Source: Candidatus Tepidiaquacellales bacterium OLB4/UTCHB1
Lineage (GTDB): Bacteria; Bacteroidota; Ignavibacteria; Tepidaquicellales; Tepidaquicellaceae
Reading direction: 5' to 3'
Assembly: GCA_002050165.1 (NCBI GenBank)
Contig: MWSW01000008.1
Coordinates: 1-64,000 of the forward strand
Length of the DNA: 64,000 bases
Made by a program: the position numbers and the translations under genes. The notes beneath the pieces are model-generated. The model ran no database searches, was not told the DNA's origin, and worked only from the letters and a program-made list of their open reading frames with translations. Positions 1 through 17,862 of the stretch are shown one piece after another (position 1 is the first letter of the stretch; the number at the start of each line of letters is the position of its first letter).

Positions 1-681
1 AAAACACCTTCTGAAAAAATTTTTATCGTTTTACTTTTCGCAGTAACAGTTCTTGGACTATGGGCAAGTTTTACGTTATTAAAAAGAACTTTTTACGACC
101 CCATACACCTTAAGTCAATTGCTCCAGATATTGTCATGGATATGACAAAGAGTAATTTACTTTCAGAAGGTGATATTGTTTTCCAATCTAAAAAGGTCAG
201 GACAAATGATTTAATGAGTTACCTTAACGATTCATCAATAGATCAGGTCGGTATAATATTATATTACAGAAAGGGTTACTACGTGCTGGAATCTGATGGT
301 GAAGTAGTGTTAACTCCTTTGGAAGAGTGGATACCAAAAGGAGAGAACGGAAATTTTACAGTGAAACGTTTGAGGAATGTAAAAATTAAGGGCGATCGGC
401 TACTTAATGAGGCATTAAAGTTCACGGGAAAAAACAAAGATATTTATTTTAACTGGTCAGATGATTTACTTTACAATGCTGAATTGGTTTATAAAGTCAT
501 TGAAGATGCAACCGGTGTAAAACTAGGCGCTCTAAAGCAATTAGACGAATTCAGCTTCGATAAGAAAGGAAAAGAATTGCTTCGCCAGACTTATGGCGAC
601 AATATTCCTTTCAAAGATAATTTTATAACAGTAAAACAATTATATGATTCAGACGAACTCGAAACCATATACAACTACTGA
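1..681 (+). CDS. YiiX-like permuted papain-fold protein, catalytic residues lost; 5' truncated by window edge
   Basis: The reading frame is open from base 1, so the start lies outside the window; the first internal ATG is at 136. The visible part begins with a hydrophobic segment (about residues 7-25), suggesting a membrane anchor. After it comes a domain that aligns well in memory with E. coli YiiX (DUF830, NlpC/P60 superfamily): a GDIVFQ start, a VGIIL strand, TPLEEWI, a WSDD motif, ELVYKV and a C-terminal LYDSDELET. In the family the catalytic histidine sits in SHxG and the cysteine in YCSE. Here those places read DQVG (Gln at 244-246) and YNAE (Asn at 475-477). The fold therefore looks kept while the peptidase/amidase chemistry looks lost. 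Family assignment is confident; the role is unknown. Confidence 0.75.
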   Translation, partial: KTPSEKIFIVLLFAVTVLGLWASFTLLKRTFYDPIHLKSIAPDIVMDMTKSNLLSEGDIVFQSKKVRTNDLMSYLNDSSIDQVGIILYYRKGYYVLESDGEVVLTPLEEWIPKGENGNFTVKRLRNVKIKGDRLLNEALKFTGKNKDIYFNWSDDLLYNAELVYKVIEDATGVKLGALKQLDEFSFDKKGKELLRQTYGDNIPFKDNFITVKQLYDSDELETIYNY

Positions 682-4105: not shown

Positions 4106-7100
4106 ATGGAAAAAAAATTTACTTTTGTTTTTTTCTTATCGGTAGTTTCACTCCTGTTCTTGTTCTCATCAACCGTTTATTCTGTTAATCATTATTATTA
4201 TTGGAACAAAAAAATCGACCTTGTCCCACGGAACGACAGGATTATGGTATTTTTCAAGGAGGGGGAAATTACAGAACGCGAACAACGAAACGAATTGGAT
4301 GTTTCGGTCGCCGGATTAGAAACTACAGTCAGCCAAGTATTTCCAAACACCTGGCTGATAAAATCATCTGACAAGATGGGCTTCTTAAACACGGACGCAG
4401 TCTTACAATTAATTGCAGGCAGAAGCAATAAAATCAAAACAGTCTCAAAAGTTTATTATGGTGATGATCCGAAGGTAATTTTATGTCCACTTGACGAAAT
4501 CATTGTCCGCCTGAGGAATGAGAGCGATAAAAACTTATTAGATTATTTAAATGAACAGAACGGAACTTATATCGTCGGAGAAGTTAGCAACTCAAGGACT
4601 TTTCTGATAAAAACAAAAAACGATAACAATCTAAACGGGCTTGACCTTGCTCAGTTATACAGAAACACTACACTGTTTGAGTTTGTAGAACCAAATTTTG
4701 GATTTACCGAATGGTCTCTCCTTAACCATATACCCAACGATCTGTATTTCCCGAGTCAGTGGGCGCTGAAAAACACCGGGCAGGCTATAACAACAGGTGG
4801 GATTGCTTCATCGGGAGATGCTACTACTACAACAGGATTACCAGGCGCTGATATGCAGGTGTCAGACGCCTGGAACCATACCACCGGCAGTCCATCAATT
4901 AAGATTGCAATAGTTGATACCGGTATCGATTCTGCTCATGCTGACCTGGTCTCAAATGTATTAATGGGTTATGATGCTATAACGAACGTAAATTCAGTCC
5001 CGGATGATCCTTACGGTCACGGAACACAATGCGCCGGACTAATAGGGGCTACAATGGATAACTCTATAGGAGTTTCAGGAATTGCCCCGGGTTGTAAGAT
5101 AATGTCAATTCGTATTTTCGATGCCGGGGGTTCTACATCAAATACAATAATTATCCGGGCTTTGGATACCGCCTTTAAAAATGATATTGATGTTATGAGC
5201 AATAGTTGGGGTGGGGGTCCACCATCTGCATCTATTGAAAGCGCTATGGATACGAATGCAATCAAGGGTAGAGGCGGATTGGGGACAGTAATACTTGCTT
5301 CCTCCGGAAATGACGGGATAAATCCTCCAAATTATCCTTCTGCATATAAAAATGTTTTTTCTGTCGGTGCTTCAACATTTCATGATAATAAGAAATCCCC
5401 CGGTAGCGGCAGCCAGTATTGGTGGGGTGGAAATTATGGAAGTCGGTCTTCTGAAGAGTATCTCGGGGTTGTCGCTCCAACTATTTGTTATACAACTGCC
5501 CCTGGTGGAGGCTACGATGCAACGTTTAATGGTACGTCAGCCTCGTGCCCTAATGCTGCAGGAGTAGCTGCTTTGATTCTTTCGGTTGACCCTACGTTGA
5601 CCCGAACCGAAGTATTAGAGTACCTCTCGCAAGGTTGCGAGAAGATTGATAATGTGGAATACGATGAAGATAAACCCTACGGCAAGTGGAACAGCTATTA
5701 CGGTTATGGCAGGGTTAACGCTTACAACTCCGTTAGGCTTGCGGCAGGTGTTGACGTAGTTCCGCCGTCAATTTCACACAAGAATATCAAATCGCACTCA
5801 AGTACCTACCCAACGAAAATTACCGCTGAAATTACTGACCATGACGGGACAGCTGTTCCTACATCGGGTGATAATCAGCCAAAACTGTTTTACAGAAAAA
5901 GGACAATAGGTGGTTCATGGGGCAGTTTTGATTCCGTAACTGCTGATTCATATTCCGGAAGCGAATTTACATTTTACATCCCTGGTACCGGATATGGAAC
6001 CGAAGTGAACTACTACATCAGATCCCGAGACGCAGCAGGTAATGAATCAACTTTCCCGTTACATGCAACCTCTTTGGATTTTTCTAATCTTTGCTACTTT
6101 GCAATTGGAACGTTCATTGAATTTACCGATAAAATATCAGGTTGGAACTTCAATTACAGCCACAGCATTTCTCCTGTTATAACTGTTCCAACATCTTTTC
6201 CTGTTCTTGACGTAAGCGTAAAACTCCACGTCAGAAACGCAAGGATGATCGATCTTGGTCTGTTGTGTCTCTGGGCACCGGGTACTGATACTGCTAATTA
6301 CCGGAAATGTATGTACGCACAAAATTATCTAAATGCCTCAAGCACACCATCCGGGGGATTAAACGGATGTATAGTAAATGATACTGCTCATAAATTCTGG
6401 TTTGATGATTTTTCGAATACCGGTTTGTGGACAGGCGGAGAATATAAACCTGATAACCCCTTCTTTGCAGGATTGGTAGGAACCGATGCATTAGGTAGTT
6501 GGAAATTTCTCGGAAGAGATCGTTATTCAAGTTATTTTACTTACTGTGACTCATTACAGCTTTATCTAAAAGGGCTTGAAAATACTCTTTCGCCCAGTGT
6601 CAGACATGACAGCGAAAATGATACCATAGTTTACTTTCCCTCGGTTGTAGAAGTTGATACGATTGATTTCTATTTAAAAAATACTGGTACCGCGGCTCTG
6701 ACGATTTCCACATATACAATTTCCGGGGACTACCCTGAAAAGTTCAACGTTATCAACTCCCCTGATTTGCTCGTCGCTCCCGGTGATAGTACACTTTTTA
6801 AAATTGAGTGTAACCCTTCGGGGCTTGATAGAAATTCAGCCTCTCCAACAGACAATTCCGAAAATGCGATACTAACGATTTCGAACGATGATCCATCTAA
6901 ATCTTCATTCAAAGTATCGCTTCAAAATGATGGTGCTTTACCGGTTGACTTCGTTGAGTTCAATACAAATGTTGATAAGAATAATGTAACGCTTAACTGG
7001 ACTACCGCATGGGAAGAGAACAACATGAGATTTGACATACAGAGAAGAAATATTGTCCCGAGCGGAGAACAGAACGAGTCATGGAAAACAATTGGTAGTG

Positions 7101-7522
7101 TTGCAGGAAGTGGAACAGTCAACGAGCCGCGATCGTACTCTTACCTTGACAAAAACCTTGTAACAGGTACGTATGAATACAAGCTTACTCCGATAGATGT
7201 GAATGGAAATTCAACAGCAGATATTTTACTCGGACATGAGGTCGAAATCGGGATACCAAATGAGTTCGCAATGTCTCAGAACTACCCGAACCCGTTCAAT
7301 CCGAGTACGAAAATTGACATACAGATTCCCGTAGAAGGAATGACCAGGCTCGTTATTTTTGATTTATCCGGTAGAGAAGTAGCAACACTTGTGAACGAAA
7401 TATTGACACCAGGTTATTATACATATAACTTCACTGCTTCGAACCTTGCCAGTGGAGTTTACTTTTATAGATTGTCAACAAAACAAAGTGTGATAACAAA
7501 GAGGATGGTTTTAGTGAAATGA
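4106..7522 (+). CDS. Secreted subtilisin-family (S8) protease with T9SS type A sorting domain
   Basis: This 1138-aa protein has an N-terminal signal peptide (hydrophobic core about residues 8-25), a propeptide-like region to about 215, and an S8 protease domain. The complete catalytic set is Asp271 (IVDTGID), His305 (GHGTQCAG), oxyanion Asn402 (SSGNDG) and Ser478 (NGTSASCPNAAG). Downstream are an Ig-like part (about 555-650), a region resembling the P domain of proprotein convertases (about 670-825), an Ig-like part of the kind found in choice-anchor repeats (about 830-945) and an FN3-like part. The last ~87 residues are a T9SS type A sorting domain (QNYPNPFNPSTK, ending KRMVLVK). It is predicted to cross the outer membrane through T9SS and remain surface-attached or be released. 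It stands alone and is followed by a hairpin terminator. Confidence 0.93.
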   Translation: MEKKFTFVFFLSVVSLLFLFSSTVYSVNHYYYWNKKIDLVPRNDRIMVFFKEGEITEREQRNELDVSVAGLETTVSQVFPNTWLIKSSDKMGFLNTDAVLQLIAGRSNKIKTVSKVYYGDDPKVILCPLDEIIVRLRNESDKNLLDYLNEQNGTYIVGEVSNSRTFLIKTKNDNNLNGLDLAQLYRNTTLFEFVEPNFGFTEWSLLNHIPNDLYFPSQWALKNTGQAITTGGIASSGDATTTTGLPGADMQVSDAWNHTTGSPSIKIAIVDTGIDSAHADLVSNVLMGYDAITNVNSVPDDPYGHGTQCAGLIGATMDNSIGVSGIAPGCKIMSIRIFDAGGSTSNTIIIRALDTAFKNDIDVMSNSWGGGPPSASIESAMDTNAIKGRGGLGTVILASSGNDGINPPNYPSAYKNVFSVGASTFHDNKKSPGSGSQYWWGGNYGSRSSEEYLGVVAPTICYTTAPGGGYDATFNGTSASCPNAAGVAALILSVDPTLTRTEVLEYLSQGCEKIDNVEYDEDKPYGKWNSYYGYGRVNAYNSVRLAAGVDVVPPSISHKNIKSHSSTYPTKITAEITDHDGTAVPTSGDNQPKLFYRKRTIGGSWGSFDSVTADSYSGSEFTFYIPGTGYGTEVNYYIRSRDAAGNESTFPLHATSLDFSNLCYFAIGTFIEFTDKISGWNFNYSHSISPVITVPTSFPVLDVSVKLHVRNARMIDLGLLCLWAPGTDTANYRKCMYAQNYLNASSTPSGGLNGCIVNDTAHKFWFDDFSNTGLWTGGEYKPDNPFFAGLVGTDALGSWKFLGRDRYSSYFTYCDSLQLYLKGLENTLSPSVRHDSENDTIVYFPSVVEVDTIDFYLKNTGTAALTISTYTISGDYPEKFNVINSPDLLVAPGDSTLFKIECNPSGLDRNSASPTDNSENAILTISNDDPSKSSFKVSLQNDGALPVDFVEFNTNVDKNNVTLNWTTAWEENNMRFDIQRRNIVPSGEQNESWKTIGSVAGSGTVNEPRSYSYLDKNLVTGTYEYKLTPIDVNGNSTADILLGHEVEIGIPNEFAMSQNYPNPFNPSTKIDIQIPVEGMTRLVIFDLSGREVATLVNEILTPGYYTYNFTASNLASGVYFYRLSTKQSVITKRMVLVK

Positions 7523-16368: not shown

Positions 16369-17862
16369 TTAATTGTTTTTAATTTTTTCTTTGATTGAAT
16401 TAATTGTTTTCATGAACTCCTTATCCTTTGCTATACGTTTAGAAACATTGTTATAAGCGTACAGTACAGTAGCATGATCCTTACCCCCGAAATTTAATCC
16501 GATTAGTTCAAGCGTCAAATCAGTCATTTCTTTAGACAGATACATTGCAATTTGCCTTGCGTTAACAACATTTTTAGTTCTTTTCTTTGAAAGTATTAGA
16601 CTTTCTGAAATACGATAAAAATCGGAAACACTTTGAATAATCAAATCAACCGAGATATTTCTAACTCTGCCGGGATTTCCAACAACCCTTGTTATAACTT
16701 TCTCTGCTATATCAAGAGTTATTTCACCCTCATAAACTAAAGCGCTCTCTGCAATCATTCCAATAACGCATCCCTCAATTGTCCTGATGCTTTCCTTTAT
16801 GTTTGTTGCGGTGAAATGAGCTATTTCATCGCTAATTTCTATATCTGCATCTTTAAACTTTTTCTTTACAATGGCAACCCGCATTTCCCAGTTCGGCGGT
16901 TGAATGTCAGCAGTCATGCCCCACTGAAATCTTGAAATTAATCGATCTTCAATTCCCTTAATTTGGTTAATTGGTTTATCGCTTGAAAAAATCACGTGTT
17001 TTTTCTCATTAAAAAGAGAGTTAAAAATCTGATACATGAAGTCCTGCGTTTTTTCCTTTCCGCTTAAGTTTTGAACATCATCTATAATCAACACATCAAG
17101 ATTTCTGTAAAACGTATCAAGTTTTTTTGTTCCGAATAGATTTGATGAATAATCTGATATTCTGCTGTTGGCGATACTGTCGGTGAATTGTTTTGTAAAA
17201 TCCGGAGCAGTTGTATAGTAAACCTTTTTTTCAGGATACTTTTTTCTAATCTCATTTCCTATTGCCTGTATCAGGTGAGTTTTACCCAGACCCACACCAC
17301 CATATATAAAAAGAGGATTATAAATCTTTCCAAGGTTATTTGTTATTGCCCATGCCGCCGCAACCGCTAATTCATTACTTTCAGACCGAACGAAATTATC
17401 AAATGTATTTTTAGAATATAAATTTGGAGATGAAAATATTTCGCTATCTGAATAAATTTTCTCCGGAGTAATTTCAATCGGTTTAATGTTTTTCTTTGAA
17501 GTTGCGTTTTCATTTTCTGTAGTCAGTGAATTGTCTGGTGGAGTTACAAAAAGTTCAAGTTGAGCAACTTTGTAAACTAACTTTCCGTTTTCCCCGAGTA
17601 AACCACTACCGATTACTGCACTGATTTGTTTATTGTATCTCTTCTCTATGATTCCATAATAATCTTTACTGGGCACGGAGATTGTCAGTATATTATTATC
17701 GAAACTAATCGGTTCGATAACAGAAAACCACGTTGTAATTTCAGATGGTTTTAAACTATCTTCAAGAAGTTTTAAAAACTTTTCCCAAACAACTTTCGCT
17801 TCCTGTGTATCTTTGGGCTGATTTAATTCTTCAGCTTTTGAAACAGCAGATACTTTGATCAC
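16369..17862 (-). CDS. dnaA: Chromosomal replication initiator DnaA
   Basis: This 497-aa protein has a GTG start. Domain I at the N-terminus (VVWEKFLKLLEDSLKPSEITTWF) is followed by a poorly conserved linker, the AAA+ domain with Walker A GGVGLGKTH (188-196) and Walker B LDVLIIDDVQ, and the C-terminal helix-turn-helix domain IV with the signature GGKDHATV. DnaA binds DnaA boxes and opens the origin. dnaN is not adjacent; the neighbours are recN downstream and the divergent alr. The 404-base upstream spacer carries repeated TTATTAACAA words (see findings), consistent with an autoregulated promoter and origin. Confidence 0.98.
   Translation of the reverse strand: MIKVSAVSKAEELNQPKDTQEAKVVWEKFLKLLEDSLKPSEITTWFSVIEPISFDNNILTISVPSKDYYGIIEKRYNKQISAVIGSGLLGENGKLVYKVAQLELFVTPPDNSLTTENENATSKKNIKPIEITPEKIYSDSEIFSSPNLYSKNTFDNFVRSESNELAVAAAWAITNNLGKIYNPLFIYGGVGLGKTHLIQAIGNEIRKKYPEKKVYYTTAPDFTKQFTDSIANSRISDYSSNLFGTKKLDTFYRNLDVLIIDDVQNLSGKEKTQDFMYQIFNSLFNEKKHVIFSSDKPINQIKGIEDRLISRFQWGMTADIQPPNWEMRVAIVKKKFKDADIEISDEIAHFTATNIKESIRTIEGCVIGMIAESALVYEGEITLDIAEKVITRVVGNPGRVRNISVDLIIQSVSDFYRISESLILSKKRTKNVVNARQIAMYLSKEMTDLTLELIGLNFGGKDHATVLYAYNNVSKRIAKDKEFMKTINSIKEKIKNN

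Follow-up and report, generated by a model that had tools for sequence, protein, structure and literature searches.

What bacterial YaeF/YiiX proteins do is described as largely unknown (PMC7387801, PMC3142127). In Escherichia coli YiiX the catalytic residues are Cys128, His49, Glu64 and Tyr115, and the crystal holds a fatty acid whose head group is bonded to Tyr115 and which lies in a hydrophobic tunnel (PMC3142127). Where a role has been established for a bacterial relative, it concerns lipids or lipoproteins, as for LnsA (PMC7387801) and Tox-Act1 (PMC12994826); LnsA, a bacterial PPNE with a demonstrated genetic role on lipoproteins, shares 18% identity with YiiX in the HHpred comparison of its authors (PMC7387801). 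The His/Cys pair is called conserved or invariant in the passages of PMC7387801 and PMC12994826 that deal with it, and catalytically inactive papain-like proteins are known from other families (PMC10318531). In a search of open-access papers, no description of an inactive YaeF/YiiX protein was encountered.

Here we analyze a protein of this family that is encoded right at the beginning of a contig and is likely to be a pseudoenzyme. The window, by which we mean the whole stretch of 64,000 nt that was analyzed (1-64000), begins with the first base of this contig, and the source genome amounts to 2.42 Mb in 19 contigs (99.27% complete). The features discussed below are collected in Table 1.

Table 1. 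Features of the YiiX-like gene at the start of the window
Feature	Position	Strand	Residues and basis
C92/YiiX-like gene, likely pseudoenzyme	1..681	+	226 aa; 5' end cut by contig start
N-terminal hydrophobic helix, predicted membrane anchor	7..96	+	residues 3-32; AlphaFold helix, hydrophobic sequence
Juxtamembrane FYDPIH, with the only His of the protein	91..108	+	residues 31-36
Helix of the alpha-B region, Ala71 and Ala75 replaced by Leu	211..228	+	residues 71-76
Gln82 in place of catalytic His (YiiX His49)	244..246	+	alignment to SHTG of E. coli YiiX
Glu97, third triad residue (YiiX Glu64), kept	289..291	+	alignment
Lys146 in place of conserved active-site Tyr (YiiX Tyr115)	436..438	+	alignment with relatives
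Asn159 in place of catalytic Cys (YiiX Cys128)	475..477	+	alignment to YCSE of E. coli YiiX

The gene, its fold and its active-site positions

The reading frame is open at the contig edge, and the alignment with relatives indicates that only a few N-terminal residues are missing. The encoded protein belongs to PF05708 with a profile score above the curated cut-off (58.5 bits against 27, E 1.1e-15; residues 55-224 on profile positions 3-166 of 166), and phmmer matches it to E. coli YiiX (2if6_A) with E 3.4e-26 and 30% identity; the score for the NCBIfam YiiX equivalog NF007458 (PRK10030.1) is 140.3 bits, below its cut-off of 216.

An AlphaFold model built with 58 relatives has a mean pLDDT of 93.6 and a pTM of 0.85. 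Its best solved match is again 2if6 (Foldseek E 2.4e-18; for 2if6_B, VIA Z 26.1 and rmsd 2.1 A over 175 residues), followed by 3kw0 (Z 15.3) and then by PLAAT3 at a Z of about 8, so that the model and its Z-scores to 2if6 and 3kw0 assign to the protein the permuted papain-like NlpC/P60 fold of PF05708. In the VIA range, residue 52 of the model corresponds to chain residue 19 of 2if6; counting on from there without a gap puts residues 82 and 97 on His49 and Glu64, and allowing for the two chain insertions of the phmmer alignment brings residue 146 to Tyr115 and residue 159 to Cys128. Fold modelling and family alignment, two of the checks proposed with the original prediction, thus returned a confident YiiX fold and upheld the placement of Gln82 and Asn159. 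The same model also matches chain E7 of the Euglena gracilis super-complex I+III2+IV (8iuf; Z 8.5 and 8% identity over 135 residues). This subunit of a respiratory complex may have a YiiX/LRAT-like fold; no paper on it was found.

Three of the four catalytic residues are lost, and Glu97 is the only one that remains. The Cys/His dyad of PF05708 is replaced by Asn159 and Gln82, the third polar residue of the triad is present as Glu97, and the signature Tyr, which holds the P1 carbonyl or the lipid head, has become Lys146. These assignments leave little doubt, because the surroundings of the substituted residues match those of YiiX (GKNKD for GKNYD, WSDDLLYNAE for WSDDKIYCSE) and the flanks align without gaps. 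It had been proposed from the sequence that Gln and Asn occupy the places of the catalytic His and Cys, and this is what the alignment to SHTG and YCSE gives, in a family sample where all 120 relatives have His and Cys; the loss of the Tyr is an addition to that reading, which named two residues only. Moreover, another Cys/His pair at the active site, set beforehand as a finding that would overturn the proposal, is excluded from sequence alone because the protein has no Cys at all and a single His, residue 36, which is juxtamembrane and lies outside the domain.

A sequencing or assembly error, or a misalignment, in an otherwise active enzyme is extremely improbable. The position of the gene at the contig edge speaks for it, but three separated codons are changed, the Cys-to-Asn and Tyr-to-Lys replacements require two or more base changes apiece under the genetic code, the flanks GKN[Y/K]D and WSDD..Y[C/N] are free of gaps, the frame is uninterrupted, and the whole protein lacks a Cys that could have been misaligned.

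The hydrophobic N-terminal stretch is also present in relatives, and in the model it forms a helix that would insert into the membrane. Of the 120 collected relatives, 9 carry the juxtamembrane motif as FYDPKH and 17 have a looser version resembling YDP.

Neither a partner nor an operon was identified for the gene, whose upstream sequence is removed by the contig edge, and no neighbor gene is common to the window and the four loci of the same family, nor to those loci among themselves. Immediately downstream, the gene is followed on its own strand (1009-2215, +) by one for a DUF1648 membrane protein, which overlaps one for a protein of the uracil-DNA-glycosylase superfamily (PF03167). Further on, the window carries a subtilase (PF00082) that ends in a Por-type secretion sorting domain (PF18962) at 4106-7522 (+), and DnaA (Bac_DnaA E 2.5e-54) at 16369-17862 (-), because of which the window may be close to a replication origin.

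Relatives and divergence of the domain

We collected 120 relatives (115 distinct domain sequences), 33 of which came from similarity searches of whole genomes without a motif filter (6, then 7 and 20 more), and 87 from motif-seeded scans that contributed the best 80 of 580 genome-contig matches and seven loci on viral contigs. The seeds of these scans contain YCSEL or (Y)DxxFxWSD, so they are biased to active members and could not catch a copy without both motifs. Within this sample, including the best 80 of 580, each of the His, Glu, Tyr and Cys columns is kept in 120 of 120 sequences, all seven viral loci among them.

The profile search of the class (391 genomes) lists 51 PF05708 matches, two in the source genome and 49 elsewhere. 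Both His and Cys are present in 48 of these 49, some of them read by eye and three of them (L159, L160, L162) being weakly scoring NlpC/P60 proteins of canonical order; for the remaining match (L161) the contig stops before the His, so that only the Cys is readable. No loss of His or Cys was therefore seen among the 48 fully readable matches outside the source genome. The second C92 protein of the source genome (L010, 3542-5026) has 494 aa, a C92 domain at residues 196-372 and an intact His and Cys; proteins of about 500 aa similar to it occur in many genomes of the class. In a Candidatus Endomicrobium neocapritermitis MAG (L081, 2986-5055), a YiiX-type domain (PF05708, E 1.5e-29) is joined to HEAT-/TPR-like repeats in a single 690-aa frame, an architecture absent from the other rows listed.

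In the order, five of the 44 genomes besides the source carry a YiiX-type copy, always of the active type. No close ortholog was found by the order search (44 genomes) or the relatives search (99 genomes), which included no second genome of the same genus, and searches of the class (391 genomes) and phylum (395), with an even draw from the larger groups, returned active-type relatives only. A genome-contig search with the window protein alone gave 58 pattern stretches and no relative, plasmid records gave nine distant matches and phage records none. The nearest relatives share 30-40% identity with the window protein and are without exception active-type; none of them is a close ortholog, so the Cys and His that they have kept are no refutation of a pseudoenzyme. 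The form that has lost three catalytic residues is a singleton, seen in one genome only, and is offered as a lead with no claim on the clade.

A quick tree placed the window protein weakly (support 69) beside a Providencia sequence. This we take as long-branch attraction, because a tree in which the protein was constrained to group with 21 mainly Bacteroidota rows of active enzymes scored better, by 21.55 log units over the free quick search (p-AU 0.80), in a test where the 21-row group was named after the tree had been seen and long branches were in play. Members of this group share the FYDPxH motif with the window protein. The best reading of these sequences is descent from active Bacteroidota YiiX-type enzymes.

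The changes in the domain are not confined to the active site. Over 42 near-invariant columns, each at least 93% conserved in the collected relatives, the window protein keeps 25 and has changed 17. It shares with YiiX the motifs GDIxFQ, TPLxxWI, WSDD and YGxNIP; the changed stretches include SxSxQ..A...AT on the N-terminal side of the His and YCSE..W..Y on the C-terminal side of the Cys. The most changed of the other rows is L037, only distantly related, which differs at 19 of the 42 columns yet has all four catalytic residues; the rows after it have at most five changes. The original prediction had described the surrounding motifs as well kept and the loss as one of just two residues in an otherwise conserved domain; the former overstates the conservation and the latter is not supported as it stands, with three of the four catalytic and 17 of the 42 near-invariant columns changed. 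By chance alone, three or more of the four catalytic positions would be among the 17 changed columns with P 0.17, which is not significant; the active site is therefore not hit preferentially over the other conserved columns. In the alpha-B helix, Ala occupies position 71 in 110 and position 75 in 115 of the 120 collected relatives, and the window protein has Leu at both.

Among 56 rows, the window protein has the longest end branch (3.16; second longest 1.77, median 0.39), and four members of the same family are 50-62% identical to one another and 30-34% identical to the window protein. These two results, with the scatter of the 17 lost columns across the domain, favor a copy of the enzyme under relaxed selection that is being lost, its frame still open since the loss is recent or selection weak. 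Such a gene would also be dispensable, because most genomes of the order are without a copy. We regard this explanation as rather unlikely, for the reasons given below.

Maintenance, loss or a new function

Random mutation was simulated from five active relatives, with a transition bias of 2 and 5% of indel events, both values being assumed. Losing an equal share of conserved columns took about 160-180 substitutions and brought 5-6 stops on average; only eight of 2000 runs were free of stops, and none of 2000 was free of both stops and indels. Under these assumed rates, neutral decay of this extent would nearly always leave stops or frameshifts in the frame. The frame also scores 0.228 bits per codon, within the range of 24 other ORFs of the window (0.186-0.325), and the other five frames of the same stretch score from -0.13 to 0.07. 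The open frame, the native codon usage and the simulation together argue against long neutral decay; the confident predicted fold and the preserved juxtamembrane motif also stand against a copy that is being lost, and both the simulation and the codon data are compatible with weak selection or recent relaxation.

The proposal that the gene is not decaying at random is thus supported, decay without selection being unlikely from simulation and codon usage. That of a maintained pseudoenzyme stands in part: the dyad is gone, no Cys replaces it and the fold is predicted to be kept, and more than the two residues named have changed. A protein maintained by selection and binding lipid is plausible, and the lipid or peptide binding suggested in the original prediction is still an inference. 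Counting against it are the long end branch, which also fits relaxed selection, the occurrence in one genome with no close ortholog, and the absence of enrichment among the catalytic columns (P 0.17).

On balance, the protein is probably a non-catalytic YiiX (C92) member, membrane-anchored and folded, derived from active Bacteroidota enzymes and plausibly kept for binding. Having lost its nucleophile (Cys), its base (His) and the Tyr that binds the carbonyl, it would no longer carry out thiol acyl chemistry, and the N-terminal helix would anchor a still-folded permuted papain-like domain; with Asn and Gln in place of Cys and His, covalent acyl chemistry would not be possible by the known route. 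Lys146, at the place of Tyr115 and next to Glu97, with the amides of Gln and Asn around it, could hold an anionic lipid head, and the protein would then hold such a head, or an acylated protein, stoichiometrically rather than cleave it. A more specific version, in which a YiiX-type acyl enzyme has turned into a membrane-anchored receptor for lipids or acyl-proteins, with a Lys salt-bridge clamp beside the Glu, and binds what its relatives cleave, is unlikely. Binding is the weakest step of the explanation and only a guess, because the Leu residues that replace Ala71 and Ala75 may make the lipid pocket (the S1 tunnel) narrower or fill it rather than keep it.

The same residues allow a reading in which the chemistry has changed and is not dead, Lys146, Glu97, Asn159 and Gln82 forming a rebuilt active site with a new activity. 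The three replacements are polar and able to join in binding or proton transfer, Glu97 is kept, and reviews of pseudoenzymes note that in some supposed cases the catalytic residues have moved elsewhere in the protein (PMC10211241). We consider it very unlikely, since there is no evident equivalent of the nucleophile, no collected relative shows an intermediate state, and the portions of the literature consulted hold no use of such a residue set in the family.

If the receptor version is true, the bacterial YaeF/YiiX family would have its first pseudoenzyme, as judged from open-access papers. A natural form with the fold and without the catalytic residues separates binding from catalysis and, should it bind a lipid, would offer a direct way to the ligand of the YaeF/YiiX family.

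Comparison with known systems

Permuted NlpC/P60 proteins that act on lipids resemble the window protein in their core. This is the case of the Tox-Act1/TseH-type phospholipases, whose substrates are lipids; they need the His and Cys that the window protein lacks, Ala substitutions of these residues ending their toxicity (PMC12994826). The human PLAAT3/HRASLS3 structures (7ZOM, 4DOT) match its structural core with Z 8.1-8.3 over 95-96 residues and 12-13% identity, but PLAAT3/HRASLS3 is an active His/Cys phospholipase-acyltransferase (PMC8316810). LnsA of Staphylococcus aureus, which works in lipoprotein N-acylation with LnsB, belongs to the same superfamily group and is likened here by its published description; in contrast to the window protein, its authors infer for it an intact permuted active site (PMC7387801).

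The closest likenesses are found in the YaeF/YiiX family itself. E. coli YiiX (PDB 2IF6; C92, YaeF-YiiX family of permuted NlpC/P60, PPNE) has the fold, the motifs and the triad Glu of the window protein, which differs from it by Gln82, Lys146 and Asn159 in place of His49, Tyr115 and Cys128 and by retaining a predicted N-terminal membrane helix. The YiiX-like membrane proteins of Bacteroidota (for example L038, L018, L041 and L004) share the N-terminal helix, the FYDPxH or YDP motif and the layout of the domain, at 30-36% identity, but keep all four catalytic residues.
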